Virus record (IMG/VR): IMGVR_UViG_3300015371_000008
Span: 1-64,000 of that record
Origin: a virus
DNA length: 64,000 nucleotides
Direction: 5' to 3' (one strand)
This document shows, piece after piece, positions 9,518 through 60,862 of this stretch; position 1 is the stretch's first letter; each line of letters begins with the position of its first letter. The notes under the pieces are model-generated. The model saw nothing but the letters and a program-made list of their open reading frames with translations, was not told the origin of the DNA and did not search any database. Both the position numbers and the translations under genes were made by a program.

Positions 9518-9525
9518 CGCTGAGT

Positions 9526-9598
9526 GGCGGGGGCAGGATTTGAACCTGCGACCTCTGGGTTATGAGCCCAGCAAGCTACCGAACTGCTCCACCCCGCT
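9526..9598 (-). tRNA. initiator tRNA-fMet(CAT)
   Basis: Three consecutive G-C pairs in the anticodon stem (CTGGG/CCCAG), loop CTCATAA and an unpaired position 1-72 (A.C) are initiator hallmarks. Confidence 0.92.
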
Positions 9599-9608
9599 AC
9601 GTCCCATC

Positions 9609-9959: not shown

Positions 9960-9971
9960 TCATCTCCTTCG

Positions 9972-9989
9972 GGTGGGTCGCTCTCCACC
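9972..9989 (-). promoter_or_regulatory. 5' UTR hairpin, GAGCGAC loop
   Basis: Stem GGTGG/CCACC with loop AGAGCGAC, 9 nt before the ribosome site of the 9609-9959 gene. Confidence 0.75.
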
Positions 9990-9993
9990 AACG

Positions 9994-10067
9994 TGCCGCC
10001 GACGGGATTCGAACCCGCAAAACCCCAGATTGAAAGTCTGGTGACTCTACCCTTCGTCCACGGCGAC
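9994..10067 (-). tRNA. tRNA-Glu(TTC), copy 1
   Basis: Acceptor GTCGCCG/CGGCGGC, anticodon stem CCAGA/TCTGG, loop CTTTCAA. Confidence 0.9.
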
Positions 10068-10079
10068 CAGGGACTTACG

Positions 10080-10151
10080 TACTCCGCGCGGGGATCGAAC
10101 CCGCACCTCCTGATTGAGAATCAGGTATCCAGACCACCAGACCAGCGGAGC
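10080..10151 (-). tRNA. tRNA-Glu(CTC), copy 1
   Basis: Acceptor GCTCCGC/GCGGAGT, anticodon stem CCTGA/TCAGG, loop TTCTCAA. Confidence 0.88.
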
Positions 10152-10217
10152 TTGTAGGGCCAGGCAGCGCATACCCAGATCACCCCTCCGATTCCTGGGG
10201 ATGGCGCCTGACCCTTC

Positions 10218-10733
10218 TCACGCAACAGTTGCCGACTCTACTCGGAACCATTCGCGAGCCTGTGCGAAATGCTTGGCCGATACACCATGCTGCCACCCGG
10301 TGTGAATCAGCCGGAAGTCGCCGACGCCCGGATGCCCTTTCAGCCACACCTTGTCACGCCTGGTCAGCTCGTCATCGAACCAGACGAACGGCCGCCCCTG
10401 CACGAACTTCGCCACCCTCGGCGTCTTGCGGTGCACCCGGTAGTCATCCCCCGGCTCCACCGCCTCCCGCATGTCGATGACCGGCAACTGAGGCAGCCCC
10501 AGAAGGGGAGCGATATGCGCGTTTGCGTCGTGGCTCCACATGGTCGCCCACACCAGGTCGGCGCCGACCGTCTCGGCCAGCTCCAGCAGCACCGGTCCAT
10601 GTTCGGGGTTGAGCAGGACGTTGTACGTCTCGCCCTGGCAGGTCAGCCTGTGCGCCTGCCACTGCGGACCGGGACGCCCGAACGGTGCGAGCACACCATC
10701 CACGTCCAACAGGATCAACTTGTCCACGTGCAC
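10218..10733 (-). CDS. HAD-superfamily phosphatase-like protein
   Basis: The GTG start (VHVDKLILLDVDGV) follows GGAG. LLDVDGVLAPFG near the N-terminus is HAD motif I (DxDG), with the nucleophile and general acid aspartates at residues 10 and 12. ATMWSHDAN may be motif II, and VWFDDELTRRD near residue 115 fits motif IV. At 171 residues it lacks a large cap. HAD enzymes cleave phosphate esters; the substrate is unknown. Phage members often act on nucleotides or RNA ends. An AAGAGCGAC hairpin (10748-10766) precedes it. Confidence 0.82.
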   Translation of the reverse strand: MHVDKLILLDVDGVLAPFGRPGPQWQAHRLTCQGETYNVLLNPEHGPVLLELAETVGADLVWATMWSHDANAHIAPLLGLPQLPVIDMREAVEPGDDYRVHRKTPRVAKFVQGRPFVWFDDELTRRDKVWLKGHPGVGDFRLIHTGWQHGVSAKHFAQAREWFRVESATVA

Positions 10734-10747
10734 ATCCTCTCCTTCGC

Positions 10748-10766
10748 GCGGGGTCGCTCTTCCCGC
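10748..10766 (-). promoter_or_regulatory. 5' UTR hairpin, GAGCGAC loop
   Basis: Stem GCGGG/CCCGC with loop AAGAGCGAC upstream of the HAD gene. Confidence 0.72.
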
Positions 10767-10795
10767 ACCCGCGAAGACGTAGACCGTCTTCGCCG

Positions 10796-10868
10796 TACCC
10801 CCGCCGGGATTCGAACCCGGATTTCGACGCTTAAAAGGCGCCTACTCTGCCAATTGAGCTACAGGGGC
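10796..10868 (-). tRNA. tRNA-Lys(TTT)
   Basis: Acceptor GCCCCTG/CGGGGGT, loop CTTTTAA, discriminator A. Confidence 0.9.
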
Positions 10869-10871
10869 ATG

Positions 10872-11015
10872 TCACGCAGGATTGGCGATCACCATCCCGC
10901 AGTCCTCACAGTGCGGCGGCCAGACCAGCCACCCCATCCACTCCTCCGAACGATCCAGTCCCTCCGGAACGATCCTGCCGCCGCACTGCTGACAGTCGGG
11001 ATAGAACCAGGTCAT
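10872..11015 (-). CDS. zinc-ribbon-like protein, 47 aa
   Basis: Start MTWFYPDCQQCGG after GGAGGGTCT. CQQC at residues 8-11 and CEDC at residues 38-41 form a classic four-cysteine zinc ribbon. Upstream in-frame codons are tRNA-Arg sequence. Function unknown. Confidence 0.78.
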   Translation of the reverse strand: MTWFYPDCQQCGGRIVPEGLDRSEEWMGWLVWPPHCEDCGMVIANPA

Positions 11016-11029
11016 AGACCCTCCGTACG

Positions 11030-11102
11030 TGCGCCGTGAGAGATTCGAACTCCCAACCATCCGGGTAGAAACCGGCCGCGCTATCCATTGCGCCAACGAC
11101 GC
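11030..11102 (-). tRNA. tRNA-Arg(TCT)
   Basis: Acceptor GCGTCGT/ACGGCGC, anticodon loop TTTCTAC, T-loop TTCGAAT. Reads rare AGA codons. Confidence 0.88.
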
Positions 11103-11130
11103 GAACCTTTCACGATCCGAAACGATCGTT

Positions 11131-11313
11131 TCATTCCATCGCCACGCCCGGTCCTAGAACCGGGCAGAACGACACTGGCACCAGCCGCCCGGTGGCCATG
11201 TCGCTGCACGCGAGGCAGATCTCCGCCGGGATCGTGTGGCGGCTTTCCCCGTCGGGCCGGTAGTCGATCGACTCGTGCCAGCCCGACTCCGGGTCGTCCG
11301 GGTCATAGCCCAT
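11131..11313 (-). CDS. hypothetical protein with CxxC, 60 aa
   Basis: The ATG at 11313 (MGYDPDDPESGWHE) is preceded by GAGGCGAAAT. The next ATG upstream lacks spacing. It overlaps the upstream gene's stop. The protein contains EICLACSDM, a possible half zinc site. Function unknown. Confidence 0.7.
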   Translation of the reverse strand: MGYDPDDPESGWHESIDYRPDGESRHTIPAEICLACSDMATGRLVPVSFCPVLGPGVAME

Positions 11314-11710
11314 ATTTCGCCTCATCCTTCACGTACACCATGTAGGCGATCACGCCCGCTTCGTAGGCGGCCCGCCGAGCGTCGGCGTCGGTGTCGTACT
11401 TGGTGCCGTCCAACGGGTGCCTGATGATGTCGCAGCCGCCTTCGGGCTTGTACTTGATCTGTCTGATACTCAGCTCGATCTTGCCGTCGTCGGCTGCGAC
11501 CACGGACGGCGAGGACATCACCTTGCACAGTCGCGGGAACGACACTCCCCACTCGGCGTGAGTCACTATCGGCGGCCCGCCGTCGGCGTAGGTCGGGAAG
11601 CGGCCGTAGGGGGCTTCATTGAAGGTCCAGATGCGGTAGCGACCGTCGTGCCAGTCGTATTCCTGGCCCTGCATCGGCGGGTAGTCGGTAACGTTCTGTG
11701 GCGTGTCCAT
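11303..11710 (-). CDS. hypothetical protein, 135 aa
   Basis: Start MDTPQNVTDYPP follows GGAGGACCCC. The central part is aromatic (YDWHDGRYRIWTFNEAPYGRFPTY) and the C-terminus has a repeated Asp/Ala helix. No family recognised. First gene behind a strong promoter at 11750-11779 and a loop-AGAGCGA hairpin. Confidence 0.75.
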   Translation of the reverse strand: MDTPQNVTDYPPMQGQEYDWHDGRYRIWTFNEAPYGRFPTYADGGPPIVTHAEWGVSFPRLCKVMSSPSVVAADDGKIELSIRQIKYKPEGGCDIIRHPLDGTKYDTDADARRAAYEAGVIAYMVYVKDEAKYGL

Positions 11711-11726
11711 GGGGTCCTCCGTGGGG

Positions 11727-11779
11727 GTTGGTCGCTCTCCAACACCCCAAAGATACATCCATTTAGCGTCTTAGGTCAA
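11727..11779 (-). promoter_or_regulatory. CTAAATG-type promoter plus GAGCGA hairpin
   Basis: TTGACC (11774-11779), 18-nt spacer with CGCTAAATGGATG, TATCTT (11750-11755). The hairpin GTTGG-AGAGCGA-CCAAC occupies 11727-11743. It sits between the promoter and the ribosome site. Confidence 0.85.
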
Positions 11780-11782
11780 GGG

Positions 11783-11873
11783 CGGAAAATGGAGGACTCG
11801 AACCCCAGGGCCGTTCACACCAGCCCTCATCCGGTTTAAATCGGCGGCCACCTCCTTGGTGGCGTCATTTTCC
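11783..11873 (-). tRNA. class II tRNA-like element, anticodon unclear
   Basis: The acceptor GGAAAAT/ATTTTCC is perfect, discriminator G (Ser-like), T-loop TTCGAGT, length 91. The middle does not form a normal anticodon arm: only CCG/CGG pairs around ATTTAAAC. The anticodon could be UUA or UAA, or the gene is degenerate. Confidence 0.45.
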
Positions 11874-11899
11874 CCCACCGTGTTGAGGGGTGGGTCCAG

Positions 11900-11983
11900 C
11901 GGAAGGCGGAAGACTCGAACTTCGGCCGCCGCCGACGGCCACGCGGATTCCAGCCGCGTCCCGGCACCTGCCGGTCACCTTCC
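11900..11983 (-). tRNA. tRNA-Ser(GGA)
   Basis: Acceptor GGAAGGT/GCCTTCC, perfect CGCGG/CCGCG stem with loop CTGGAAT, long variable arm, discriminator G. Confidence 0.88.
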
Positions 11984-11986
11984 ATG

Positions 11987-12061
11987 GTCCTCGGAGCAGG
12001 AGTCGAACCTGCCGTCGCCCGGTTATCAGCCGGGTGCCTTCACCGCTTGGCCACCCGAGGA
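11987..12061 (-). tRNA. tRNA-Ile(GAT)
   Basis: Perfect acceptor TCCTCGG/CCGAGGA, stem CCCGG/CCGGG with loop CTGATAA. Confidence 0.87.
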
Positions 12062-12064
12062 AAG

Positions 12065-12149
12065 CGGAGAGGGAGGGTATCGAACCCCCGCCGGTGTGAC
12101 CCGGGCAGCGGCGTAGCAAGCCGTCCCATTACCTCTCTGGCACCTCTCC
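12065..12149 (-). tRNA. tRNA-Ser(GCT)
   Basis: Acceptor GGAGAGG/CCTCTCC, loop TTGCTAC, long variable arm, discriminator G. A degenerate GCTAGATG element lies just upstream (12150-12170). Confidence 0.87.
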
Positions 12150-12253
12150 ACGATACTTCCATCTAGCGCCTGCCGGTGCTACCTTGGAGTGGTACGCCCC
12201 TGGTCCGGCTCTGCACCGCATCCCGCCAGGGGCACGGCCATTTCTGGGACTGG

Positions 12254-12325
12254 TGCCGACCCCGGGATTCGAACCCGCCCTACCGCCTTGGCAAGGCGAT
12301 GTGCGACCGCTGACACTTCACCCAC
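12254..12325 (-). tRNA. tRNA-Gly(GCC), weak acceptor stem
   Basis: Anticodon arm TCGCC-TTGCCAA-GGCGG and T-loop TTCGAAT are good, and the D-stem GTGT/GCAC is present. The acceptor halves (GTGGGTG and GGTCGGC) pair poorly. It may be decaying or edited. Confidence 0.65.
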
Positions 12326-12327
12326 AA

Positions 12328-12396
12328 GTTCCGTGACCGGTGGACCGACGACTCGGGTGTGGACGGGGCCGGGGCGACCATCCTCCGGTCACGGAA
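12328..12396. repeat. 12-bp inverted repeat flanking a spacer
   Basis: TTCCGTGACCGG and CCGGTCACGGAA are perfect complements about 45 nt apart between tRNA-Thr and tRNA-Gly. Likely an RNA-processing stem. Confidence 0.6.
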
Positions 12397-12398
12397 AG

Positions 12399-12468
12399 AG
12401 CCCAACCCCGGAGTCGAACCGGGCAGGCCGTTCGTACCAAGAACGGGTGCACACCAGGTGCGAAGGGC
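12399..12468 (-). tRNA. tRNA-Thr(GGT)
   Basis: Stem CGTTC/GAACG with loop TTGGTAC. The acceptor GCCCTTC/GTTGGGC has two U.U mismatches, as does tRNA-Thr(CGT). The D-region is short. Confidence 0.72.
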
Positions 12469-12480
12469 AAACGGGTAGGG

Positions 12481-12512
12481 GTGTCCGGGCCGTGAACGCC
12501 CGGCCCGGACAC
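12481..12512. repeat. perfect 12-bp spacer hairpin
   Basis: GTGTCCGGGCCG/CGGCCCGGACAC with an 8-nt loop between tRNA-Gln and tRNA-Thr. Confidence 0.7.
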
Positions 12513-12517
12513 CACCG

Positions 12518-12590
12518 CTCTGGGATCAGGAATCGAACCTGAGCAAACCGGAACCAAAATCCGGCCGCCGAGCCAGCACGGCATCCCAGA
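12518..12590 (-). tRNA. tRNA-Gln(TTG)
   Basis: Perfect acceptor TCTGGGA/TCCCAGA, stem CCGGA/TCCGG, loop TTTTGGT. Confidence 0.9.
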
Positions 12591-12595
12591 ATGCG

Positions 12596-12666
12596 AGCCC
12601 AAGGGCGGAATCGAACCGCCTCGAACGCCTTACGGGGGCGCTGCTCTGCCAGTGAGCTACAAGGGC
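12596..12666 (-). tRNA. tRNA-Thr(CGT) with C33
   Basis: Stem GCGCC/GGCGT with loop CCCGTAA: position 33 is C. The acceptor GCCCTTG/CTTGGGC has tandem U.U mismatches. Confidence 0.75.
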
Positions 12667-12681
12667 GTGACCCCGAAGGGC

Positions 12682-13359
12682 CTACATGTCCGGCCGGGGC
12701 TGAAACTCCGGCCTGGAGCTGATCTCCTCAACCCAGTCCGACAGGGAGATCTCTTCGCCGGAGCCACTATAGAAGGCGAGATCGTCCACCTTCGCATGCA
12801 GTTCCACGTCATGCGGCATTGGCAGGATGCCTTCTGCTTCGGCGGTGTCGCGGTGCTTAACGACCGCGAAGGCGAGGCGGAACAGGGTGTCCTGGTTCCG
12901 TTTGCGCTTGTCCGGATTAGGTTCTGCCGGATGCCTGCCGTTCAGCTTGTTCGGCCCGGAGGCTGCGCGGATCCGTTTGATGTCGGAATGCCGCAAGCTG
13001 ATGATCTGCTTGTCTTTGAGGATTTTCGTACGCCACAGGTCATATTCGCCCTTGGCGGCGAAATACTTGCGTTTCCCCTCTTCGCCCAGATTCCAGCACT
13101 GCTGATGGTAGGAGTCCATCTCTGCTCTCCGCGTCGCGATCTGGTCGTCCAGGGCACGCAGCAGACGAACCAGAGCCTGCTCGGTCCGTTCGATCAGCGA
13201 CGGCCCGGAGAGCATCCCCCAAAGCTGTTGACGCTTTTCGGTCACCGAGACGTCGTCGTGGCGACGAGGGTCGGGATAGCCGATGTTTTGACGGATCAGC
13301 AGGTCGAAGCCTTCAGGCTCCAGCTCTTGAATGGCGGCAAGGCTCACGGGGATGGCCAT
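12682..13359 (-). CDS. hypothetical protein, 225 aa
   Basis: Start MAIPVSLAAIQELEPEGF (13359). Upstream codons run into tRNA-Leu. Mostly helical and charged, with a central helix (LIERTEQALVRLLRALDDQIATRRAEMDSYHQQ) and basic middle (GRHPAEPNPDKRKRNQD). Possibly DNA-associated, but no motif is recognised. It is the largest protein gene in the tRNA array. Confidence 0.75.
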   Translation of the reverse strand: MAIPVSLAAIQELEPEGFDLLIRQNIGYPDPRRHDDVSVTEKRQQLWGMLSGPSLIERTEQALVRLLRALDDQIATRRAEMDSYHQQCWNLGEEGKRKYFAAKGEYDLWRTKILKDKQIISLRHSDIKRIRAASGPNKLNGRHPAEPNPDKRKRNQDTLFRLAFAVVKHRDTAEAEGILPMPHDVELHAKVDDLAFYSGSGEEISLSDWVEEISSRPEFQPRPDM

Positions 13360-13389
13360 GGGTGGCGTGTTCCTTCTTCCGGGGGTTGC

Positions 13390-13419
13390 CGTCCCGGCGC
13401 CGGACAAGACACCGGGACG
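13390..13419. repeat. 8-bp spacer hairpin
   Basis: CGTCCCGG/CCGGGACG with a 14-nt loop between tRNA-Leu(AAG) and the 12682-13359 gene. Confidence 0.5.
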
Positions 13420-13434
13420 ATCCTGTGTGGTGCG

Positions 13435-13507
13435 TGCGCCCGCCGGGACTCGAACCCGGATCATCCGCATCCTTAGTGCGACGCCTCTGCCATTGGGCCA
13501 CAAGCGC
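13435..13507 (-). tRNA. tRNA with AAG (Leu) anticodon, short variable loop
   Basis: Acceptor GCGCTTG/CGGGCGC, stem TCGCA/TGCGG, loop CTAAGGA. The variable loop is only ATGAT, whereas bacterial Leu tRNAs carry a long arm. Confidence 0.75.
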
Positions 13508-13543
13508 TTCAGGACGGTTCTACAGGCCGCCACCGACAAAACG

Positions 13544-13612
13544 AGCCGCCCCCCGGAATCGAACCGGGCCTACCCCCTTACAAGGGGGGCGTCGCATCCA
13601 TGGCGCGGCGGC
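13544..13612 (-). tRNA. tRNA-Thr(TGT)
   Basis: Stem CCCCC/GGGGG with loop CTTGTAA; acceptor GCCGCC/GGCGGC, with an unpaired seventh position. Confidence 0.8.
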
Positions 13613-13622
13613 AGACGGAAGA

Positions 13623-13710
13623 GGGTGGCGACGGAAAGGATTCTGCAGCCAAACCGCCCAACCAGCCCGGCGGTCTCCTTCCCGTTCTTCTGTGGCTGTC
13701 CACGCCACCC
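13623..13710 (-). ncRNA. structured RNA element, copy A
   Basis: Minus strand folds into three stacked helices: P1 GGGTGGCG/CGCCACCC, P2 ACGGGAAGGA/TCCTTTCCGT, P3 CCGCC/GGCGG capped by loop GGGCTGGTTG. An internal loop with GTGGACAGCC and CAGAAG joins P1 and P2. Copy B (13841-13932) keeps loops and changes helices compensatorily. No open frame explains it. Confidence 0.65.
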
Positions 13711-13715
13711 CCGTG

Positions 13716-13835
13716 TGGACCCGGCGGGATTCGAACCCGCATCTCCGGCTCTCCCTATGACGCACACCGCCCCCGGACGGAGGTGGCCACCTCGTATCCG
13801 GATCGCGCGGTCACGCCCGATTGAGTTACGGGCCC
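13716..13835 (-). tRNA. tRNA-like element, 120 nt, internal hairpin
   Basis: Acceptor GGGCCCG/CGGGTCC and T-arm GCGGG-TTCGAAT-CCCGC are intact, but the middle is about 40 nt too long. It holds a hairpin (GAGGTGG/CCACCTC core) and no clear anticodon stem. It lies between the two structured RNA copies. Confidence 0.5.
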
Positions 13836-13840
13836 TGGCA

Positions 13841-13932
13841 GATGATGGCGACGAGGGGGACAAAGCCTCCAAAGCGCCCAACCAGCCCGGCGCGCTCCCT
13901 CTCGTCCTTCTGCGGCTGTCCACGCCACCACC
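13841..13932 (-). ncRNA. structured RNA element, copy B
   Basis: Same architecture as copy A: P1 GGTGGTGGCG/CGCCATCATC (with G-U pairs), P2 ACGAG.GGGA/TCCC.CTCGT, P3 GCGCC/GGCGC, same loop GGGCTGGTTG and same internal GTGGACAGCC. P3 differs from copy A by a compensated double change. Confidence 0.65.
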
Positions 13933-13936
13933 TGAG

Positions 13937-14019
13937 CTGTCGGGCGGAGAATCGAACTCCGGCCGCCCCTCGCGCGAGGAGAACGACCCTGCCACACGTC
14001 TCAACGACGCGACCCGACA
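13937..14019 (-). tRNA. tRNA-like element, anticodon unclear
   Basis: Acceptor TGTCGGG/CCCGACA and T-arm CGGAG-TTCGATT-CTCCG are perfect. A D-like stem GCGTC/GACGT and a hairpin CCTCG/CGAGG occupy the middle. No standard anticodon arm can be drawn. Confidence 0.45.
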
Positions 14020-14097
14020 CCGTGACGGTTCCTCCGGATCACCTCGGGAGCAGCCGACAAGCCCGAGAGGGCGGGAGCGACCCTATTCGGTACCCTT

Positions 14098-14161
14098 CCG
14101 TCGCGAGCCGGTGCGGACTCGAACCGCCGTTGACCGTCACCGGCCGTCCCCACTCGCGACG
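14098..14161 (-). ncRNA. mini tRNA-like hairpin
   Basis: Long stem CGTCGCGAG/CTCGCGACG plus CCGGTG/CACCGG encloses a T-arm-like GCGG-TTCGAGT-CCGC segment. There is no room for D and anticodon arms. Confidence 0.35.
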
Positions 14162-14203
14162 CGGGGACGGTCGGCCGCCGGAGTCGAACCGGCATACCCA
14201 ATG

Positions 14204-14273
14204 CTCCCGGACCAGGAATCGAACCTAGAGACACAGGGGCCAGAACCCTGCTGACGGCCACCGCCATCCGGGA
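14204..14273 (-). tRNA. tRNA-Gln(CTG)
   Basis: Perfect acceptor TCCCGGA/TCCGGGA, stem CAGGG/CCCTG, loop TTCTGGC. Confidence 0.88.
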
Positions 14274-14335
14274 AGGAGCAGACCCGGTTGCAGCCGGGCC
14301 CGCCAATTATCCGCCTGCTCTACGGACGGGCAAAT

Positions 14336-14764
14336 CTACCAGGAGTCCCACACGCCGAAGTGGCGGTGGCGCGGGTCCGGGTATTCGACGTCCCAGGCGG
14401 CCTGTACGGCATCCTGGGCGCCTCGCAGCATCTTGCCGGCCTCCCGGCCAACGGCCCGATCGGCAGCGCGCAGGGCGCGTTCCTGACGGTTGGAGATGCC
14501 GCCGATCACGTGCCCCAGGTTGAAGGTACGCGGGTAGGTGCCCGCCTCCAGGCGGCGGGTCACCCGGTCCGGGCGCGGACGGTGCCCGGCGCGCTCAGCC
14601 TGGGCCAGCGCGGCGGCGCTGTAGCGCAGCGCGGACCGGATCTCGTTGGCGGTGCTCGGGTAGGTGGCACGCCACCAGGCGAAGATGTAGAGGCGACCGT
14701 CGGCGTCGTAACGCCGGGTGCCAGTGCGGTGGTTGTAGGGGACGTGGTGAACAGTACGGGACAT
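14336..14764 (-). CDS. hypothetical protein, 142 aa
   Basis: Start ATG follows GGAGTCCGA. The protein begins MSRTVHHVPYNHRTGTRRYD, is rich in Arg/Ala helices (EIRSALRYSAAALAQAERAGH) and ends HFGVWDSW. Basic, probably soluble. No family recognised. Confidence 0.72.
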   Translation of the reverse strand: MSRTVHHVPYNHRTGTRRYDADGRLYIFAWWRATYPSTANEIRSALRYSAAALAQAERAGHRPRPDRVTRRLEAGTYPRTFNLGHVIGGISNRQERALRAADRAVGREAGKMLRGAQDAVQAAWDVEYPDPRHRHFGVWDSW

Positions 14765-14849
14765 TCGGACTCCGACGTGCGGGCCCGCCCCGGATGGGCA
14801 AGCCGTCTACGTCTCACCCGCCGTGAACATCACATTCGCCTCCTTCGCG

Positions 14850-14922
14850 TAGGGGTGGCCGGATTTGAACCGGCATCATCCGCATTTTGAATGCGGCGCC
14901 TCTGCCGTTGGACTACACCCCC
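14850..14922 (-). tRNA. tRNA with CAA (Leu) anticodon, short variable loop
   Basis: Acceptor GGGGGTG/CACCCCT, stem CCGCA/TGCGG, loop TTCAAAA, variable loop ATGAT as in the AAG gene. Class I shape with a Leu anticodon is unusual in bacteria. Confidence 0.78.
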
Positions 14923-14923
14923 G

Positions 14924-14995
14924 TGCGCCGTCAGGGACTCGAACCCTGCTCTCTCGATTAAGAGTCGAGTGCATAACCATCCATGCTCACGGCGC
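14924..14995 (-). tRNA. tRNA-Lys(CTT)
   Basis: Perfect acceptor GCGCCGT/ACGGCGC, stem CTCGA/TCGAG, loop CTCTTAA. Confidence 0.92.
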
Positions 14996-15078
14996 TTTCC
15001 GTCCGGCCGGTTAGCGTCGGCCTGCCGGACGATCCCTGACCCGCCCGGGGGACGCCAATCCCGCCGGTGCAGTATCAG

Positions 15079-15098
15079 GGCACCCCACCCAAGTGGGG
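15079..15098. repeat. 8-bp spacer hairpin
   Basis: CACCCCAC/GTGGGGTG with a 4-nt loop just downstream of tRNA-Gly(TCC) on the minus strand. It lacks a T-run. Confidence 0.5.
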
Positions 15099-15103
15099 TG
15101 TAG

Positions 15104-15174
15104 AGCCGTACCGGAGAGTCGAACTCCGCTCCCCGCGTTGGAAGCGCGGGACATCGCCACAATGCTTGTACGGC
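15104..15174 (-). tRNA. tRNA-Gly(TCC)
   Basis: Perfect acceptor GCCGTAC/GTACGGC, stem CCGCG/CGCGG, loop CTTCCAA. Confidence 0.9.
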
Positions 15175-15177
15175 ATG

Positions 15178-15243
15178 GGGACCAGGCGGGGAATCGAACC
15201 CCGCTTTCCTAGGATTTCCGTGCCCTTTCCGGGGGCCTGGTCC
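15178..15243 (-). tRNA. tRNA-like element with unpaired anticodon arm
   Basis: Acceptor GGACCAG/CTGGTCC, D-arm GCCC/GGGC and T-arm GCGGGG/CCCCGC pair well. The 17-nt region where the anticodon arm should be contains CCTAGG and cannot pair as a stem. It overlaps the end of a possible 41-codon frame (MNRIGKGETPTD). Confidence 0.45.
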
Positions 15244-15409
15244 ACGGCGGGAAACGGCCCGGGTGCCCACGAGTGATCAGCTCGCAAACACTGACGGTAT
15301 CCGTAGGGGTTTCCCCCTTTCCGATCCGGTTCATCCCGCGTGCTCGACGACGCTCCGGATCCCCCTTCGCTGGCAACCCAGCTACTAAGTTCACCTGCAC
15401 CGTCGTGCG

Positions 15410-15481
15410 TGGCTCCCCAGAGAGTCGAACTCTGTCCTCTGGATCTTCAGTCCGGCGCTCATCCCCATGAGCTTGAGAGCC
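15410..15481 (-). tRNA. tRNA-Phe(GAA)
   Basis: Acceptor GGCTCTC/GGGAGCC, loop CTGAAGA, discriminator A; one mismatch in the anticodon stem. Confidence 0.87.
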
Positions 15482-15506
15482 TTTCGATCTCACCCGGCCG
15501 CAGAAG

Positions 15507-15650
15507 CTAGTGGTCGGGTGTCTTGTTCTCGTCGTCTATGACGCGTGTGGCCGCTGCCGCTGTGGCATCCTTCTTGGCCGCTATCCGCTTATTGATCTCT
15601 CTTATGTCTGCCTCGATCTCACGCAGTTCGCGTGCCTTTCGTCCGAACAT
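15507..15650 (-). CDS. small helical protein, 47 aa
   Basis: ATG follows AGGAGGCGAC. The peptide MFGRKARELREIEADIREIN continues KRIAAKKDATAAAATRVID and is one continuous charged helix, probably a coiled coil. It is not long enough to name. Confidence 0.75.
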   Translation of the reverse strand: MFGRKARELREIEADIREINKRIAAKKDATAAAATRVIDDENKTPDH

Positions 15651-15695
15651 GTCGCCTCCTGGCTAGGGGGGTGTCAACCTGGCGGGGAATTTTCG

Positions 15696-15914
15696 TTACG
15701 GTGCCTGGTCGAAGTATCGGCGGCCACGTTCGAACGCCGTCGTCCGATGTACGCCGTGCACGCCCTCCGTTGCCGCCAGGACGCGTCCCAGCGCCGTCTT
15801 GTAGGCGCTACGGGCGGTCGCCGCTCCAGGGAGTGGCCCGTCCGCGTTGTTGACTCTGGCGTCTTCACGGGCGATGTCAGCCAGCAGGTCTTCAACAAGC
15901 TTCTGTATGTCCAT
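15696..15914 (-). CDS. hypothetical protein, 72 aa
   Basis: Begins MDIQKLVEDLLADIARED after CAGGAGAACC. A helical N-terminus precedes a loop and AYKTALGRVLAATEGVHGV. The leader has the CGGG-AGAGCGA-CCCG hairpin at 15926-15940. Function unknown. Confidence 0.75.
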   Translation of the reverse strand: MDIQKLVEDLLADIAREDARVNNADGPLPGAATARSAYKTALGRVLAATEGVHGVHRTTAFERGRRYFDQAP

Positions 15915-15925
15915 GGTTCTCCTGT

Positions 15926-15940
15926 CGGGTCGCTCTCCCG
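15926..15940 (-). promoter_or_regulatory. 5' UTR hairpin, GAGCGA loop
   Basis: Stem CGGG/CCCG, loop AGAGCGA, before the 15696-15914 gene. Confidence 0.65.
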
Positions 15941-15981
15941 TTGGGTGGTGGGCTGCTGTACAGCGCCGCCCACCAGGCGCT

Positions 15982-16003
15982 CCCCCGCACGGCCGTGCGG
16001 GGG
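15982..16003. repeat. 22-bp perfect palindrome
   Basis: CCCCCGCACGG and CCGTGCGGGGG form an uninterrupted palindrome between tRNA-Arg(ACG) and a protein gene. No T-run. Confidence 0.65.
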
Positions 16004-16044
16004 CCGGTCACCCATACTCGATGACTTTCAGGTGATTCCGGACG

Positions 16045-16116
16045 TACCCGCGACAGGATTCGAACCTGCATCCTCGACGTTCGTAGCGTCGCGCTCATCC
16101 ATTGAGCTACACGGGC
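16045..16116 (-). tRNA. tRNA-Arg(ACG)
   Basis: Acceptor GCCCGTG/CGCGGGT, stem GACG/CGTC, loop CTACGAA. A34 would be deaminated to inosine by the host TadA enzyme. Confidence 0.9.
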
Positions 16117-16120
16117 ATGA

Positions 16121-16184
16121 TGCACGACAGGGCCAGGGACTTCCGTCGCAATGCGTGTTACCGCTCTTCCAGCCCTGCCGTGCA
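16121..16184. repeat. 13-bp inverted repeat (one mismatch) between tRNA and gene
   Basis: TGCACGACAGGGC and GCCCTGCCGTGCA are complementary except for one A.C. They bracket 38 nt of spacer. Confidence 0.55.
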
Positions 16185-16235
16185 CGATCTCCTGGCCGAC
16201 CACGCGGGCGTCTCACCCCGCGACCGGACCCCCAC

Positions 16236-16463
16236 CTAACCGGCCAGGTCGTTCTCACCGCCCAGTGCGGCGCATTCCGTGCACGGGCGCGTCCTCAGCG
16301 GACCAGGCCGCCAGAACAGGATCAGCGCCCCGAACGGCGGAATGATCGCCGCTATGGACGGGTTGCAGAACTCGTCCTCACCCTTGAAAATCGTTGGCTT
16401 CCACCAGCAGGTGAGCGTGGTGGGCGACCACCACATCAGGCGGCCGATGTTGAACTGCTTCAC
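16236..16463 (-). CDS. hypothetical protein with CxxC, 75 aa
   Basis: GTG start (VKQFNIGRLMWWSPTTLTC) after AAAGGCGA. It has a hydrophobic centre (SIAAIIPPFGALILFWRPG) that could be a membrane segment and a C-terminal CTECAALGG. Possibly a membrane-anchored redox or metal protein. Unassigned. Confidence 0.65.
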   Translation of the reverse strand: MKQFNIGRLMWWSPTTLTCWWKPTIFKGEDEFCNPSIAAIIPPFGALILFWRPGPLRTRPCTECAALGGENDLAG

Positions 16464-16490
16464 ACTCGCCTTTCGGATCAGCCGGGAAGG

Positions 16491-16664
16491 TCACTTCTTG
16501 TTGTTGATCTTTGCGCTACGGGCGACCGTCCTGGCCCGCTCGTAATGCGCATCCGACTCCGCCTTGTCGCCGTCCAGCTCCGCGATGAAACCCTTCGCGG
16601 CATGCTTGGCGACCTGGTCAAGCTGCTTGTCGGTCAACTTCCCATACTCCGCATTGCCCGCCAT
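16491..16664 (-). CDS. small helical protein, 57 aa
   Basis: Start MAGNAEYGKLTDKQLDQV is preceded by AGGAGGCGCCC. It is a charged helix ending SAKINNKK. Similar small Lys-rich helical proteins appear at 36664-36834 and 37794-37961. Leader contains the CCCGG-TTGAGCGAC-TCGGG hairpin. Confidence 0.75.
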   Translation of the reverse strand: MAGNAEYGKLTDKQLDQVAKHAAKGFIAELDGDKAESDAHYERARTVARSAKINNKK

Positions 16665-16683
16665 GGGCGCCTCCTGTGAGACT

Positions 16684-16702
16684 CCCGAGTCGCTCAACCG
16701 GG
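16684..16702 (-). promoter_or_regulatory. 5' UTR hairpin, GAGCGAC loop
   Basis: Stem CCCGG/TCGGG (one G-U pair) with loop TTGAGCGAC before the 16491-16664 gene. Confidence 0.72.
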
Positions 16703-16832
16703 AGAAGGTGCGGGTGCCGCTTCACTACGGCCTAGGCCACGACCGACCGGCTTTCTCCGCAACGCGTACGCTTCGCCGACCAGCCTCCCAAGGGCCAGAG
16801 CCCGGGGTAAGGGTTCCCGGGCGCTCCCGCCG

Positions 16833-16987
16833 TCCCTGGTGCTGGATTCGAACCAGCAACTTCCGCCCCCGTATTCGGGATTACCCGGCCAGGTCCCCGC
16901 CCTGCCCGACTAGTACGGGCTGAACGGTTTACCCCTGACAAACGGGCCCCGGCGGGACGATGCCTCTACCAATTGGGCTACCCAGGG
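16833..16987 (-). tRNA. interrupted tRNA, about 80-nt insertion
   Basis: A 5' half (CCCTGGG, D-arm GCC/GGC with AATTGGTAGA) and a 3' half (T-arm GCTGG-TTCGAAT-CCAGC, acceptor ACCAGGG) pair with each other though 155 nt apart end to end. CGTCC and GGGCG form the anticodon stem and enclose about 86 nt, against 7 normally. The insert has its own GCCCG/CGGGC hairpin. Anticodon not determinable. Whether it is spliced is unknown. Confidence 0.5.
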
Positions 16988-17020
16988 CTGGAGTGAGGCG
17001 TGATGTGCCTCACTCTCGCG

Positions 17021-17096
17021 TACCCGCAGCAGGATTCGAACCTGCACCATGCCCCACTCCGGAGGTGGGTGCCCTGTCCAGTTGGGCGATACGGGC
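17021..17096 (-). tRNA. tRNA-Arg(CCG), copy 1
   Basis: Acceptor GCCCGTA/TGCGGGT, stem CCCAC/GTGGG, loop CTCCGGA. Confidence 0.9.
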
Positions 17097-17100
17097 GTGC

Positions 17101-17148
17101 GTCAGATCGTGGACGCCTGTCGAGGGTCGAACCGGCTCACGATCTGAC
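17101..17148. repeat. 11-bp inverted repeat, paralog 1
   Basis: GTCAGATCGTG/CACGATCTGAC encloses a TTCGACC-containing loop. A paralogous stem at 17645-17748 differs by compensated changes. Confidence 0.65.
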
Positions 17149-17156
17149 TTGCGACG

Positions 17157-17357
17157 TCACGTGTCGTCGCCGTCCGAAGCGTACGGGTTCACCTGGTAGA
17201 GCTGCTCCCGAAGCTTGTCGTAGTCGAGAACGAGGGCCTCAGTTCGACCGTCACTGGGGATTCGCATGAGGACGGCATGCCCGTCCTCATCCCACCCCAA
17301 CTCGTAGGGGTTGCCGACTTTGTCATGACACGTTTTCCACGATCCACTGAACTTCAT
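17157..17357 (-). CDS. hypothetical protein, 66 aa
   Basis: ATG after AAAGGAGGGACAGC. MKFSGSWKTCHDKVGNPYELG, then a beta-like core (WDEDGHAVLMRIP) and a helix (YDKLREQLYQV). It sits inside one unit of a duplicated tRNA segment but has no counterpart in the other. Unknown function. Confidence 0.78.
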   Translation of the reverse strand: MKFSGSWKTCHDKVGNPYELGWDEDGHAVLMRIPSDGRTEALVLDYDKLREQLYQVNPYASDGDDT

Positions 17358-17381
17358 GCTGTCCCTCCTTTCTCTGTGACG

Positions 17382-17457
17382 TACCGCTGGCCGGAATTGA
17401 ACCGGCGACCTTCAGATTGAGAATCTGACGACCCGAACCAGCAGAGTCTTCAGCGGC
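17382..17457 (-). tRNA. tRNA-Glu(CTC), copy 2
   Basis: Acceptor GCCGCTG/CAGCGGT, stem TCAGA/TCTGA, loop TTCTCAA. Paralog of the Glu(TTC) gene at 17773. Confidence 0.82.
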
Positions 17458-17459
17458 CT

Positions 17460-17554
17460 TGTGACATCCGGACTCGAACGAGCCGGTACGTATGCCCACC
17501 GTACGAATTACCGCGCGGACCTTCGTACAGTGCGGTACCGCTGGGGAGTGCCAC
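17460..17554 (-). tRNA. tRNA-like element, 95 nt
   Basis: Acceptor GTGGCAC/ATGTCAC (6 of 7) and a TTCGAGT loop are present. The centre folds as GTACGAA/TTCGTAC and GTACG/CGTAC hairpins instead of ordinary D and anticodon arms. Confidence 0.35.
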
Positions 17555-17567
17555 GCCCCCCGGGCCG

Positions 17568-17640
17568 TGCTCGCAGCAGGATTCGAACCTGCGGTCTCCT
17601 CCTCCGGAGGGAGGCGCCTTGTCCTCTGGGCCATACGAGC
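17568..17640 (-). tRNA. tRNA-Arg(CCG), copy 2
   Basis: Acceptor GCTCGTA/TGCGAGC, stem CCTCC/GGAGG, loop CTCCGGA. Confidence 0.9.
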
Positions 17641-17644
17641 GTGC

Positions 17645-17748
17645 GTTAGATCATGGGCGCCTGCCGGGGAGTCGAACCCCTCTACGACTTGGATGCGCAT
17701 CCGCTGCCGCTTCGCCGGACCTGGAGTCGAACCGGATCATGATCTAAC
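17645..17748. repeat. 11-bp inverted repeat, paralog 2, with tRNA-like insert
   Basis: GTTAGATCATG/CATGATCTAAC: relative to 17101-17148 each arm changed at two positions and the partner changed with it. The loop is 82 nt here and contains two TTCGACT T-arm-like segments. Confidence 0.65.
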
Positions 17749-17772
17749 TTGCGACGTTGTACACCGTCGCCG

Positions 17773-17847
17773 TGCCGCTGACCGGAATCGAACCGGCGAC
17801 CTCCAGGGTGAAAGCCTGGCAACCCAACCAGCAGGGTCTTCAGCGGC
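17773..17847 (-). tRNA. tRNA-Glu(TTC), copy 2
   Basis: Perfect acceptor GCCGCTG/CAGCGGC, stem CCAGG/CCTGG, loop CTTTCAC. Confidence 0.85.
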
Positions 17848-17885
17848 ATTGCCCGATTGCGGCTCGGGGCGGCCGTCGGACAACG

Positions 17886-18035
17886 TCAACTCTTCCCCTT
17901 GGAAGCACGGGCCGCGAGGCGCCTTTCGTAGTTCTGTTTGGCCCTAGCGTTCGACTCCCTAAGGTCCTTCCTCATCTGAGCTACGCCCTCGATCAGCACG
18001 ACGACGGCGTCACCAACTGTCAACTTTCTGCGCAA
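17886..18035 (-). CDS. small basic protein, TTG start
   Basis: The extended ribosome site AGGAGGTGATC ends 4 nt before the TTG codon at 18035. The 49-residue product (RRKLTVGDAVVVLIEGVAQM) continues as a basic helix (RESNARAKQNYERRLAARASKGKS). Probably binds nucleic acid. Unnamed. Confidence 0.72.
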   Translation of the reverse strand: MRRKLTVGDAVVVLIEGVAQMRKDLRESNARAKQNYERRLAARASKGKS

Positions 18036-18202
18036 TATGATCACCTCCTCCTGGTCATATTCACGATCGGCCCTCGGTCCCACCCCTGCGCGGCGCGTGT
18101 ACACCACGCCGCACAGGCTCCCGAGGTCTCTCCGCCCCGTCCGCCGATCGCTAAGCCGCCTTCTGTCCGAGGGTGACGGCCCCCATACCCATGGGTGGAC
18201 AC

Positions 18203-18270
18203 TGTGCTGAGAGGGCCGCAGGTCCCCGCGTACGGCGTACCTGCGCTGCCAGGCCAAAGGACCCTCTCAC
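18203..18270. repeat. spacer inverted repeat
   Basis: TGAGAGGG/CCCTCTCA arms enclose a second stem GCAGGT/ACCTGC between tRNA-Asp and the 17886-18035 gene. Confidence 0.5.
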
Positions 18271-18272
18271 CG

Positions 18273-18343
18273 CGCCTGCGACGGGATTTGAACCCGCGCC
18301 CCCCACGCTGACAACGTGGTGCTCTGCCTTGAGCTACACAGGC
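18273..18343 (-). tRNA. tRNA-Asp(GTC)
   Basis: Acceptor GCCTGTG/CGCAGGC, discriminator G, stem CCACG/CGTGG, loop TTGTCAG. Confidence 0.92.
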
Positions 18344-18376
18344 TTGCCGTGCAGGCGGTCACCCGCACGGGGATGG

Positions 18377-18508
18377 TTACTCGTCGTGCCAGGAACCTGG
18401 CCCGCACGGGTTCTTCTTGCAGTCAGCGCACACGCCCGGATTGGCGATGTCGTTGACCATCATGTGAACGCCGCAACAGGTGCAGTCCGCAACGCCGGAT
18501 TCAGCCAT
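18377..18508 (-). CDS. zinc-ribbon-like protein, 43 aa
   Basis: ATG after AGGAGGACGAT. MAESGVADCTCCGVHMMVND with CTCC and later CADCKKNPC form two Cys pairs typical of a zinc ribbon. The leader has the AAAGGG-AGAGCGAC-CCCTTT hairpin. Confidence 0.78.
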   Translation of the reverse strand: MAESGVADCTCCGVHMMVNDIANPGVCADCKKNPCGPGSWHDE

Positions 18509-18522
18509 ATCGTCCTCCTGGT

Positions 18523-18542
18523 AAAGGGGTCGCTCTCCCTTT
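18523..18542 (-). promoter_or_regulatory. 5' UTR hairpin, GAGCGAC loop
   Basis: Six-pair stem AAAGGG/CCCTTT with loop AGAGCGAC ahead of the 18377-18508 gene. The A-T pairs contrast with the GC stems of other copies. Confidence 0.8.
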
Positions 18543-18775
18543 GCGATCACAGGCATTTTGCGGGGGAGTGGCCCTCCTGGCTGACGTCCGGACGTCTCCA
18601 GGTCAGTTCCCCCTCCGTGATGGGATTGCCTCGATTGAGGACGACCGGCCACCTCACCGGATCCCCGGCGGTTCCCGGCAGGCGACCGAAGCCGCCTACC
18701 GGACTGGAGACTCATCACGGGTGATCGGCGCGTTTTCCCGGGAACCACCCCGAAGATTGGCGCCGAACCACTGCG

Positions 18776-18847
18776 TAGCGACAGCAGGGTTCGAACCTGC
18801 GACCTTCTCGTTATGAGCGAGGCGCTCTACCACTGAGCTATGCCGCC
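18776..18847 (-). tRNA. tRNA-Met(CAT), elongator type
   Basis: Paired acceptor GGCGGCA/TGTCGCT, stem CTCG/CGAG, loop CTCATAA. An Ile2 tRNA (lysidine at C34) cannot be excluded from sequence. Confidence 0.85.
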
Positions 18848-18866
18848 AGAAATCATCGACAGACGT

Positions 18867-19076
18867 CTACGCCAGGTCATAGCCGCCACGCGGGTCGATA
18901 TCGTCAATAGCGATTCCTTCGGCAAGACACAGGGCTCCGCGAGCATCTGCCATCGACGTTCGCAGATCAGCCAACGCCACCGAGTCACCGCGCTCCTTCG
19001 CCAAGCGCATGTCACCTGCCAGACTGAGCATCAGGTACTTGGGGTGAAGTTCCAACCCAAGGGGGATCTTGGTCAC
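18867..19076 (-). CDS. hypothetical protein, 69 aa
   Basis: The GTG at 19076 is 5 nt after GGAGG and is preferred over an ATG at 19091 that contains the ribosome site. Sequence MTKIPLGLELHPKYLMLSLA, then helices ending DDIDPRGGYDLA. No recognised family. Confidence 0.72.
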   Translation of the reverse strand: MTKIPLGLELHPKYLMLSLAGDMRLAKERGDSVALADLRTSMADARGALCLAEGIAIDDIDPRGGYDLA

Positions 19077-19222
19077 ATGAACCTCCAGCATTGGGGGTGG
19101 TAAAAACGGACCCCCCGGCGAACGGGTTACCCCCGCCCTACGCGGCCCTCAGGGGCTCTCAGGTCCGCGATTTCGCATGGATCGGGGGATCCGGTCGGGA
19201 CGTCCGCGAGAACGTCCCTGCG

Positions 19223-19294
19223 TGCGGATGACAGGATTCGAACCTGCGCACTCCTCGCCCCAAACGAGGTGGGCTACCACTGCCCTACATCCAC
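19223..19294 (-). tRNA. tRNA-Pro(TGG)
   Basis: Acceptor GTGGATG/CATCCGC, stem CCTCG/CGAGG, loop TTTGGGG. Confidence 0.9.
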
Positions 19295-19300
19295 AGTGAC

Positions 19301-19367
19301 GGGTACTTCGGGGGCTGTTTCCTCTTGCGTCGGAGCGACCAACCACGGAGCGCTCCCCGAAGTACCC
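19301..19367. repeat. 13-bp inverted repeat bracketing spacer
   Basis: GGGTACTTCGGGG and CCCCGAAGTACCC are perfect complements 41 nt apart, between tRNA-Pro and a tRNA-like element. Confidence 0.65.
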
Positions 19368-19371
19368 GAAG

Positions 19372-19441
19372 TGGACCGGCGGGATCCGAGCCCCCGCATC
19401 CGCCCCCCGTCGGAGGCGAGTCTTCCTTAGACTGACGGCCC
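19372..19441 (-). tRNA. degenerate tRNA-like (GAC?)
   Basis: Acceptor GGGCCGT/CCGGTCC pairs at six positions; D-stem GTCT/AGAC and stem CGCCT/GGGCG with loop CCGACGG suggest anticodon GAC with C33. The T-loop is abnormal (GGCTCGGAT). Confidence 0.4.
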
Positions 19442-19481
19442 TGATGATGTTCCGATCATCTGCGGTGTGTGCGCAACACAG

Positions 19482-19554
19482 TGGACCTGAGAGGACTCGA
19501 ACCTCCCGCCTACGCCCTGCCGAGGCGTCGCTCTACCTGATGAGCTACAGGCCC
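19482..19554 (-). tRNA. tRNA-Ala(GGC) with C33
   Basis: Acceptor GGGCCTG/CAGGTCC, perfect stem ACGCC/GGCGT, loop TCGGCAG with C at position 33. Confidence 0.8.
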
Positions 19555-19559
19555 ATATG

Positions 19560-19623
19560 GGACGGGCGCCGGGTACAGCCGGTTCTCCCGGTGTGGCGAT
19601 CGGCTTCTGCTTCTCGCCCGTCC
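19560..19623. repeat. 9-bp inverted repeat spacer
   Basis: GGACGGGCG/CGCCCGTCC brackets 46 nt which itself contains CCGGG/CCCGG. It lies between tRNA-Ala and a structured spacer. Confidence 0.5.
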
Positions 19624-19735
19624 AGAGGGGACTTACCCGACCCCTCGGCGGTGGGACATATCCGGTCCCTGCGGAGGCAGCCTTTCCAGTGTTTTTGAAA
19701 GGAGATTCCGGTCGGCTGCCACCCACCTGTCTTCT
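19624..19735 (-). ncRNA. possible structured RNA spacer
   Basis: Minus strand shows nested helices: GGTGGG and GGCAGCC pair with CCCACC and GGCTGCC across an A-rich loop (CTTTCAAAAACACTGGAAAG). A separate hairpin GAGGGG/CCCCTC follows. No reading frame is supported. Confidence 0.4.
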
Positions 19736-19739
19736 CCTT

Positions 19740-19807
19740 GTGGACCGGCCAGATTCGAACTGGCGACTATCCCCGCTAAGGGTTGCCACGCCAACGGCTG
19801 CGGTCCT
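19740..19807 (-). tRNA. tRNA-like, weak anticodon arm (AGC?)
   Basis: T-arm GCCAG-TTCGAAT-CTGGC and acceptor AGGACCG/CGGTCCA (6 of 7) are good. D-stem GCC/GGC. The putative loop TTAGCGG has a poorly paired stem. Confidence 0.4.
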
Positions 19808-19884
19808 GGGGATCATCCACGAGGTGCTAGACCGAACGTCGGTGACTAGTACGACGCTCACGCTTGCCTCCCGGCTTCACCCTT

Positions 19885-19957
19885 GCGCACCGACGGGATT
19901 CGAACCCGCACCCTTCCCCTGGCCTTACGGGGTGCTCTCGCCATGAGCTGCGGCGCG
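19885..19957 (-). tRNA. tRNA-like with non-standard anticodon loop
   Basis: Acceptor CGCGCCG/CGGTGCG, D-arm GCTC/GAGC and T-arm GCGGG/CCCGT are canonical. The anticodon stem CCCC/GGGG closes a nine-base loop GTAAGGCCA, so the anticodon (AAG or AGG) is ambiguous. Confidence 0.5.
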
Positions 19958-20096
19958 TCCGACGGTCAGGTGTGCAGGTGGCCTGCCTGCGTCTGCCGCC
20001 GGAAGTTGGTGGGGCCCGCAGGTGAGCGCCGTGGCGCAGGAACCCCTTCGCGTCTGACTGTGCGCCAGCGCGTCGGGCACCGTATTGGACCCCGCG

Positions 20097-20166
20097 TGGA
20101 CCTGGAGAGATTCGAACTCGTCTTCCCGCACCTTGCAAGGGTGGGGCGTCCCCTGGACTCAAGCCC
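20097..20166 (-). tRNA. tRNA-Ala(TGC), short D-arm
   Basis: Acceptor GGGCTTG/CAGGTCC (with G-U pairs), loop CTTGCAA on CACC/GGTG, T-loop TTCGAAT. The D-loop is only about three bases. Confidence 0.65.
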
Positions 20167-20170
20167 GTGG

Positions 20171-20310
20171 GGGTGGATGCCGGTCGCCGGGTGCACGAAT
20201 CGTGCGCCGACCGGTAGCGGGAATCACTGACCATCTGGGGTTAGCTACCCGCCGGGCCATGGCGCCGCGTCATCGCGGAACCTGTTGGCTTCCGGCATCC
20301 ACCCGATCCC
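20171..20310. repeat. 13-bp inverted repeat around tRNA-like region
   Basis: GGGTGGATGCCGG and CCGGCATCCACCC are perfect complements about 115 nt apart. Inside are further hairpins (GCGCACG/CGTGCAC) and a TAGCTAA loop, suggesting a highly diverged tRNA-like element. Confidence 0.5.
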
Positions 20311-20648
20311 CTTGCCTCATTCGCGGCGCATGACAGTTACCGGCGGACCGGGTTGTGGGCTGTGAATGAGGTTCGGGAATTCTTTCATATGCCCCGGGAT
20401 GGCGCCCGGGGCGAAGTCGGCGTGTACGGGACCGTGGGTCGCCGGAAGCGAGTCGGCGCGGTGTTGCCGCGTTCGCTTGGCCCGTGAGGCGTTTGCTTGG
20501 CGACAGGTCCGGGCTAGGGTCGCATATCCGGCGGCCCACGGAGCCCGTGCACACCTTTCTTAGGTGTCTTCTTCCACTGTTGAGTTTTCAACGCGCCCCG
20601 GCTGGGGCTCCTACCCGTACACACCCCGTGGTGGCGGTGTGGGGTGCG
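20311..20648. other. about 340 bp leader region, hairpin rich
   Basis: No convincing protein gene. Minus strand carries hairpins ACACCT/AGGTGT, GTTGA-AAAC-TCAAC and CCCCGGG/CCCGGGG. A 23-codon frame (MKEFPNLIHSPQPGPPVTVM) has no ribosome site. It may be spacer RNA of the tRNA operon. Confidence 0.4.
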
Positions 20649-20720
20649 CACCGATGGCTGGATTCGAACCAGCAGTCCTCGCCTTAACAGGGCGGCGCTC
20701 TGCCATTGAGCTACATCGGT
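20649..20720 (-). tRNA. tRNA-Asn(GTT)
   Basis: Perfect acceptor ACCGATG/CATCGGT, stem CCGCC/GGCGA, loop CTGTTAA, discriminator G. First tRNA behind the promoter at 20959-20988. Confidence 0.92.
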
Positions 20721-41244: not shown

Positions 41245-41297
41245 GTTGGTCGCTCTCCAACACCACCAACGTACAGTCATTTAGCGTCTCAGGTCAA
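41245..41297 (-). promoter_or_regulatory. CTAAATG-type promoter plus GAGCGA hairpin
   Basis: TTGACC (41292-41297), 18 nt with CGCTAAATGACTG, TACGTT (41268-41273). Hairpin GTTGG-AGAGCGA-CCAAC (41245-41261). Confidence 0.85.
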
Positions 41298-48870: not shown

Positions 48871-48924
48871 TCGGTCGCTCTTTCCGATACCCCAAAGATA
48901 CAGTCATTTAGCGCCTCAGGTCAA
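48871..48924 (-). promoter_or_regulatory. CTAAATG promoter plus GAGCGA hairpin
   Basis: TTGACC (48919-48924), 18 nt with CGCTAAATGACTG, TATCTT (48895-48900). Hairpin TCGG-AAAGAGCGA-CCGA (48871-48887). Confidence 0.85.
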
Positions 48925-55120: not shown

Positions 55121-55196
55121 CCGGTGTCGCTCAACCCGGTGGATCCCCGTCTGTTGTGTTAACTCAGAACGTACAGTCATTTAGCGGCTAGCGCAA
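55121..55196 (-). promoter_or_regulatory. CTAAATG promoter plus GAGCGA hairpin
   Basis: TTGCGC (55191-55196), 17 nt with CGCTAAATGACTG, TACGTT (55168-55173). Hairpin-like CCGG-GTTGAGCGACA-CCGG at 55121-55139. Confidence 0.8.
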
Positions 55197-55671
55197 GCTC
55201 GTTGAGCCGATTCCCTTCAGAACTTCGCCCACCTCGTCAACGACCAGCCGGGGCAGGTCGTTCCGTGCAGGCATCTTCCGCACACGCAGACGCCCACCGT
55301 CCAGCTCTTCCAGCACGCCACAGCGCACCAGGGACAGCTCCGCGAAGGCGAACCACGCCTCCGCCGCATCGGCGTCGTCCGGGCGCCGCATCGGCGTCGT
55401 CCGGGCGCTGTACGTCCACGTCAGCGGCGCACGCCGCCACGGCGGCCACGCCGGACGGGAAGACGTCGCCGGGCAGCAGGCCGCGATACAGCGGCGCCTC
55501 ACCGAGCCCAGGCTTGATGCTGGTGCAGCGGATGTGCGGCAGTTCGCCGCCGTGCAGGGCTGCGACGATGAGCTGGCAGCGCCGGTAGCAGTCCATGTAG
55601 TCGCGGCCGGGCTCGCCCACCATGAAGGTGTCCAGGCCGGGCCACGTGACCACGTGCAGGGTGTAGGTCAT
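55188..55671 (-). pseudogene. gene frameshifted by a 22-bp tandem duplication
   Basis: The N-terminal frame (MTYTLHVVTWPGLDTFMVGE...AADVDVQRPDDADA) continues, in a frame shifted by one, as EAWFAFAELSLVRCGVLEELD...GSTSLR. Between them 22 bp are repeated exactly in tandem (55365-55386 and 55387-55408); removing one copy gives a single uninterrupted protein. Function unknown. As it stands the product is truncated or fused out of frame. Confidence 0.75.
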
Positions 55672-55778
55672 GACTCACCCTCCTGCCGGGGGTAGGGGCG
55701 GCGGCGGCCGGTCGGCACACCGCGCCGGGTCTGGCGCAGACCTTTGCGCCAGACCCGGGCGTTGTCGGCGGGACGCAT
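55668..55778 (-). CDS. small Arg-rich protein, 36 aa
   Basis: MRPADNARVWRKGLRQTRRG then VPTGRRRPYPRQEGES. TGATG overlap with the upstream gene and ATGA with the next. Translational coupling supports it. Probably binds nucleic acid. Confidence 0.6.
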   Translation of the reverse strand: MRPADNARVWRKGLRQTRRGVPTGRRRPYPRQEGES

Positions 55779-56682: not shown

Positions 56683-56732
56683 TTGTCGCTCTCAACACAA
56701 CCTACTGTACACCCATTTAGCGTTACGTCAAG
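56683..56732 (-). promoter_or_regulatory. CTAAATG promoter plus GAGCGA hairpin
   Basis: TTGACG (56727-56732), 16 nt with CGCTAAATGGGTG, TACAGT (56705-56710). Hairpin GTTG-AGAGCGA-CAAC (56683-56697). Confidence 0.82.
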
Positions 56733-60777: not shown

Positions 60778-60862
60778 CTGGCTACTCCTGTGGTTGTTGT
60801 CGCTCTGGAGTGCCCCGCCCGGTCATGAACCGGGAGCCGACTACGGTCGGGGCTGGTCGTGC

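Follow-up and report, generated by a model that had tools for sequence, protein, structure and literature searches.

Results

The interrupted gene and the duplicated unit

The window analysed here is a stretch of 64,000 nucleotides of viral DNA (positions 1 to 64,000 of the IMG/VR record IMGVR_UViG_3300015371_000008). The locus under study lies on its minus strand and consists of a small gene whose reading frame is broken by two adjacent exact copies of a 22-bp unit, CGCCGCATCGGCGTCGTCCGGG (Table 1). The Shine-Dalgarno sequence GGAGGG precedes the start codon, and the frame opened by this ATG passes through the repeat without a stop, yielding an ORF of 144 aa that ends at position 55237 and whose last approximately 50 residues resemble non-coding sequence.

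Table 1. Features of the interrupted gene and its flanks (window coordinates)
Feature	Position	Strand	Evidence
Strong hairpin separating the broken gene from the one before it	55725-55760	-	55715-55775: -39.9 kcal/mol, z -5.2
Interrupted gene, ATG 55671-55669 to TAG 55190-55188	55188-55671	-	Shine-Dalgarno sequence, switch of coding potential, GC3 pattern
N-terminal part (87 codons ahead of the repeat), ATG frame	55409-55671	-	Codon log-odds +38
22-bp unit, 5' copy with respect to the gene	55387-55408	-	TRF, 100% match
22-bp unit, 3' copy with respect to the gene	55365-55386	-	TRF, 100% match; exact period scan
C-terminal part (58 codons plus stop), open in no frame but the shifted one	55188-55364	-	Codon log-odds +19
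Out-of-frame tail of the 144-aa ORF	55237-55364	-	ORF list; codon score of the tail -30.3 (51 codons)
Possible C-terminal product of 67 aa starting at ATG 55391	55188-55391	-	Sequence; AlphaFold2 single-sequence model, mean pLDDT 67
Promoter-like element belonging to the transcription unit that follows	55171-55199	-	GCTAAATGACTGTAC, exact member of the 18-copy window family

The array reported by TRF spans 47 bp (55362-55408) with a period of 22 and 100% matches, and it has the top tandem-repeat score within the window. The identity between the copies runs 3 bp further, into the CGC at 55362-55364, so that 25 of 25 bases match at period 22, and the duplicated unit is thus bounded on both sides by the trinucleotide CGC, a microhomology at the junction. 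In an exact period scan of the 108,648 bp of readable phage sequence, joined from two overlapping contigs, this unit was the exact tandem duplication with the longest period. The longest exact tandem period in 30 simulated 108-kb sequences (third-order Markov) was 12, and the duplication is far beyond chance. Since a direct CGC repeat bounds the unit, slipped-strand mispairing is the probable mode of origin. A hairpin as the driver of slippage found no support, the DNA fold of the array being unremarkable (z 0.31).

The coding phase switches at the repeat

As 22 is not a multiple of three, any change of the copy number by one unit moves the reading frame. In a codon model for which 56 phage ORFs served as the training set, the frame of ATG 55671 had summed codon log-odds of +26.6 and +11.4 upstream of the repeat and of -16.8 and -20.4 downstream of it (+38 before and -37 after in total). 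The reverse applied to the frame ending in TAG 55190-55188, with -31.9 and -7.3 upstream and +11.1 and +8.1 downstream (-39 and +19 in total). The third minus-strand frame was negative throughout, and none of the plus-strand frames scored well across the locus. GC content by codon position was 0.72/0.49/0.92 upstream of the repeat in the ATG frame and 0.76/0.45/0.79 downstream of it in the shifted frame, and codon usage on either side was at levels normal for the phage. The coding phase thus changes exactly at the duplication and by one base, as expected of a 22-bp gain. When the 108 kb were searched for frame breaks within one strand, the interrupted gene came out as by far the strongest and the sole strong break, the remaining candidates being three weak ones, all on the plus strand. 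An earlier note on this DNA had described an exact 22-bp repeat that shifts the frame in the middle of a gene; both statements hold, the repeat being exact in its coordinates and identity according to TRF, and the frame shift being borne out by the switch of codon log-odds and of GC by codon position. Judged from coding statistics and layout, the two halves appear to have once been one protein.

These scores also bear on whether the 144-aa frame might itself be a normal, selected protein and the shifted frame a chance ORF. The frame is indeed open for 144 codons and is equipped with a good ribosome-binding site, but its stretch behind the repeat scores -37, against +19 for the shifted frame over the same stretch, which makes this reading extremely improbable. 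Structure prediction for the 144-aa ORF gave no usable model (pLDDT 37).

Transcription context

Two promoter-like elements on the minus strand, at about 56704-56731 and 55171-55199, enclose a stretch in which the interrupted gene comes last. In the second of these elements, the -35-like hexamer TTGCGC overlaps the shifted frame's final codons, TTG CGC, and abuts its TAG; the position of this stop directly at the next promoter-like element is consistent with TAG 55190-55188 as the original end of the gene. Because the broken gene is the last of its apparent transcription unit, the neighbouring genes should be unaffected by its loss.

The promoter-like family has 18 copies in the window at no more than one mismatch (0.01 expected), and the 89-kb record has about 30. 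Nearly all lie on the minus strand, for example those at 56707-56721, 55171-55185, 48898-48912 and 41271-41285. Its members follow the pattern TTGACC/G, a few bases, GCTAAATGNNTGTAC..T, followed by a leader in which GAGCGAC and AGGAG precede the ATG. Conservation of the spacer motif GCTAAATG equals or exceeds that of the hexamers, suggesting that a dedicated regulator or a phage-specific factor is involved. The hairpin upstream of the broken gene (Table 1) is not accompanied by a T tract.

A second contig carries the same allele

A second contig, IMGVR_UViG_3300015373_000001, shares 58,389 bp with the window, differs there by nine SNPs and no indel, and contains the identical duplication, although its dataset and that of the window may share reads and their independence is unproven. 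A third contig of the phage, IMGVR_UViG_3300015374_000002, stops at window position ~51,114, short of the locus. A search of IMG/VR with the 22-mer matched the second contig only, again with two copies, and a single-copy allele was not found there. Given that both assemblies covering the locus have the duplication, the two-copy allele was common there, a point against the broken-gene reading.

The earlier note had left open whether the repeat is a recent mutation, an assembly error or a reversible switch. Exact copies together with the switch of coding phase at the repeat favor the first of these, and the identity of the copies and the undecayed downstream frame indicate an event that is recent on the substitution scale, copy identity over 25 bases being a weak clock. 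An assembly or sequencing error would mean that the phage has one copy and an intact protein. Overlapping read sets behind both contigs would be compatible with such an error, but a one-off artefact is unlikely given that a second contig, distinguishable by SNPs, has the identical array. Moreover, a typical short read is longer than the 47-bp array, which therefore fits within a single read, and the 108 kb hold no other strong break of such kind. We consider an error of this type highly improbable. The note had also named, as a case against its view, relatives that carry both copies and translate the upstream frame to its end as a normal protein; the sole relative encountered with both copies is the near-clone IMGVR_UViG_3300015373_000001, which does not decide the matter.

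Relatives of the gene and features of the phage

When phage records, viral contigs and GTDB genomes were queried with either half or with the read-through protein, the near-clone alone was returned, and no intact single-copy relative was found in these collections. Neither half had a homologue in the 20 records holding related head-decoration genes, a significant match in PHROGs, Pfam, NCBIfam, PADLOC or the PDB, or a paralogue in the 108 kb of the phage. Neighbouring genes used as bait for syntenic relatives led back to the same contig only, and the literature on comparable phage cases yielded nothing directly on point. By these sequence comparisons, the interrupted gene is a small orphan with no family assigned; it is probably an accessory gene.

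The phage itself carries 37 tRNA genes at window positions 7272-20720, all on the minus strand and covering nearly all amino acids. One of the tRNA genes (7275-7345) was called tRNA-Sec by Rfam, just above the threshold, and tRNA-Cys by ARAGORN. The closest counterparts of the phage's head-decoration gene are in phages of Mycobacterium, Gordonia and Rhodococcus, so that an actinobacterial host is likely and the virus is probably an actinophage.

Other repeats were also observed. A second exact tandem duplication, of 19 bp, lies outside the window at record positions 79405-79442 in the 3' end of a 107-aa ORF; located at the end of a gene, it breaks nothing clear. Besides the promoter-like family, a second dispersed element, of 50-70 bp and containing the inverted-repeat-like CCCGGTCGCGAACCGGG followed by AGCCGACTACGGTCGGGGCT, occurs with 90-98% identity at window positions 60785-60857 and at record positions 69033-69102 and 74644-74695. 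An array of 12-bp units, GGATGTCCTCAT, is found at record positions 88348-88409, likewise outside the window.

Discussion

Could both parts of the gene still be in use? It is only through the duplication that ATG 55391 shares the frame of the C-terminal half, and translation from this codon would result in two polypeptides of 144 aa and 67 aa that might work together or apart. The single-sequence AlphaFold2 model of the C-terminal piece (helix, beta-hairpin, helix) is moderately confident over the first 40 residues (pLDDT 73-82), which fits such a split. However, the sequence upstream of ATG 55391 contains no Shine-Dalgarno motif, translational coupling is not expected since the N-terminal ORF has no nearby stop, and the fold matches of the piece in the PDB, including GntR-type winged helices, were not significant, the best having an E value of 1.6. 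We therefore regard a functional split of the gene as very unlikely.

The reversible on/off switch proposed in the earlier note would require slippage to add and remove one 22-bp unit, toggling the gene within the phage population. Slippage can remove exact tandem copies, and neither reading frame has decayed so far, as such a switch would have it. On the other hand, typical slippage switches are built of many short units and this array has two copies only; the IMG/VR search gave one allele, the fold of the array is unremarkable, and the gene has neither a relationship to known phase-variable genes nor a homologue. Return to one copy is thus possible in principle, a useful rate or coexisting states are without support, and we found no positive evidence for a switch, which we consider quite unlikely. 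Even taken more broadly, a role of the unit as a two-state switch, or as the source of an in-frame start codon that splits one protein into two cooperating ones, seems unlikely.

Starting from what is directly observed at the locus, namely the duplication, the switch of coding phase, the bounding CGC repeat and the presence in two assemblies, we consider it probable that a recent frameshifting duplication by slipped-strand mispairing has hit a small accessory gene of an uncultured, tRNA-rich phage and left it inactive or strongly altered. Mispairing between the two CGC trinucleotides would have led to the tandem gain of 22 bp and moved the frame by one base, so that the present allele would encode 144 aa in which a meaningless tail follows the N-terminal part. 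The gene is probably inactive or strongly altered, and it would be dispensable.

In its exact, adjacent head-to-tail copies, in the short direct repeat bounding the unit (CGC here) and in the resulting frameshift, the array resembles small tandem duplications generated by slipped strands, from which it differs in no tested feature, although the single-copy ancestor was not found here. What it shares with simple-sequence contingency loci is a reading frame that depends on how many times a repeat within the coding sequence occurs; those loci, however, contain a long tract of short units, whereas here two 22-bp copies, one allele (two copies in both contigs) and no known contingency gene were seen. 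T4-family phages escaping ToxIN carry deletions bounded by short direct repeats, for which the authors considered slippage or recombination possible (PMC5449768). The short direct repeats bounding the rearrangement are common to both cases, but the ToxIN escapes are large deletions under selection, whereas here a single gene has gained 22 bp and no selection is known.

At the level of a single mutation the event is ordinary, and it suggests that this phage population can do without the small gene or that selection on the gene has changed there. The 144-aa ORF should accordingly not be annotated as a natural protein. A larger importance would arise only if both repeat states coexist.
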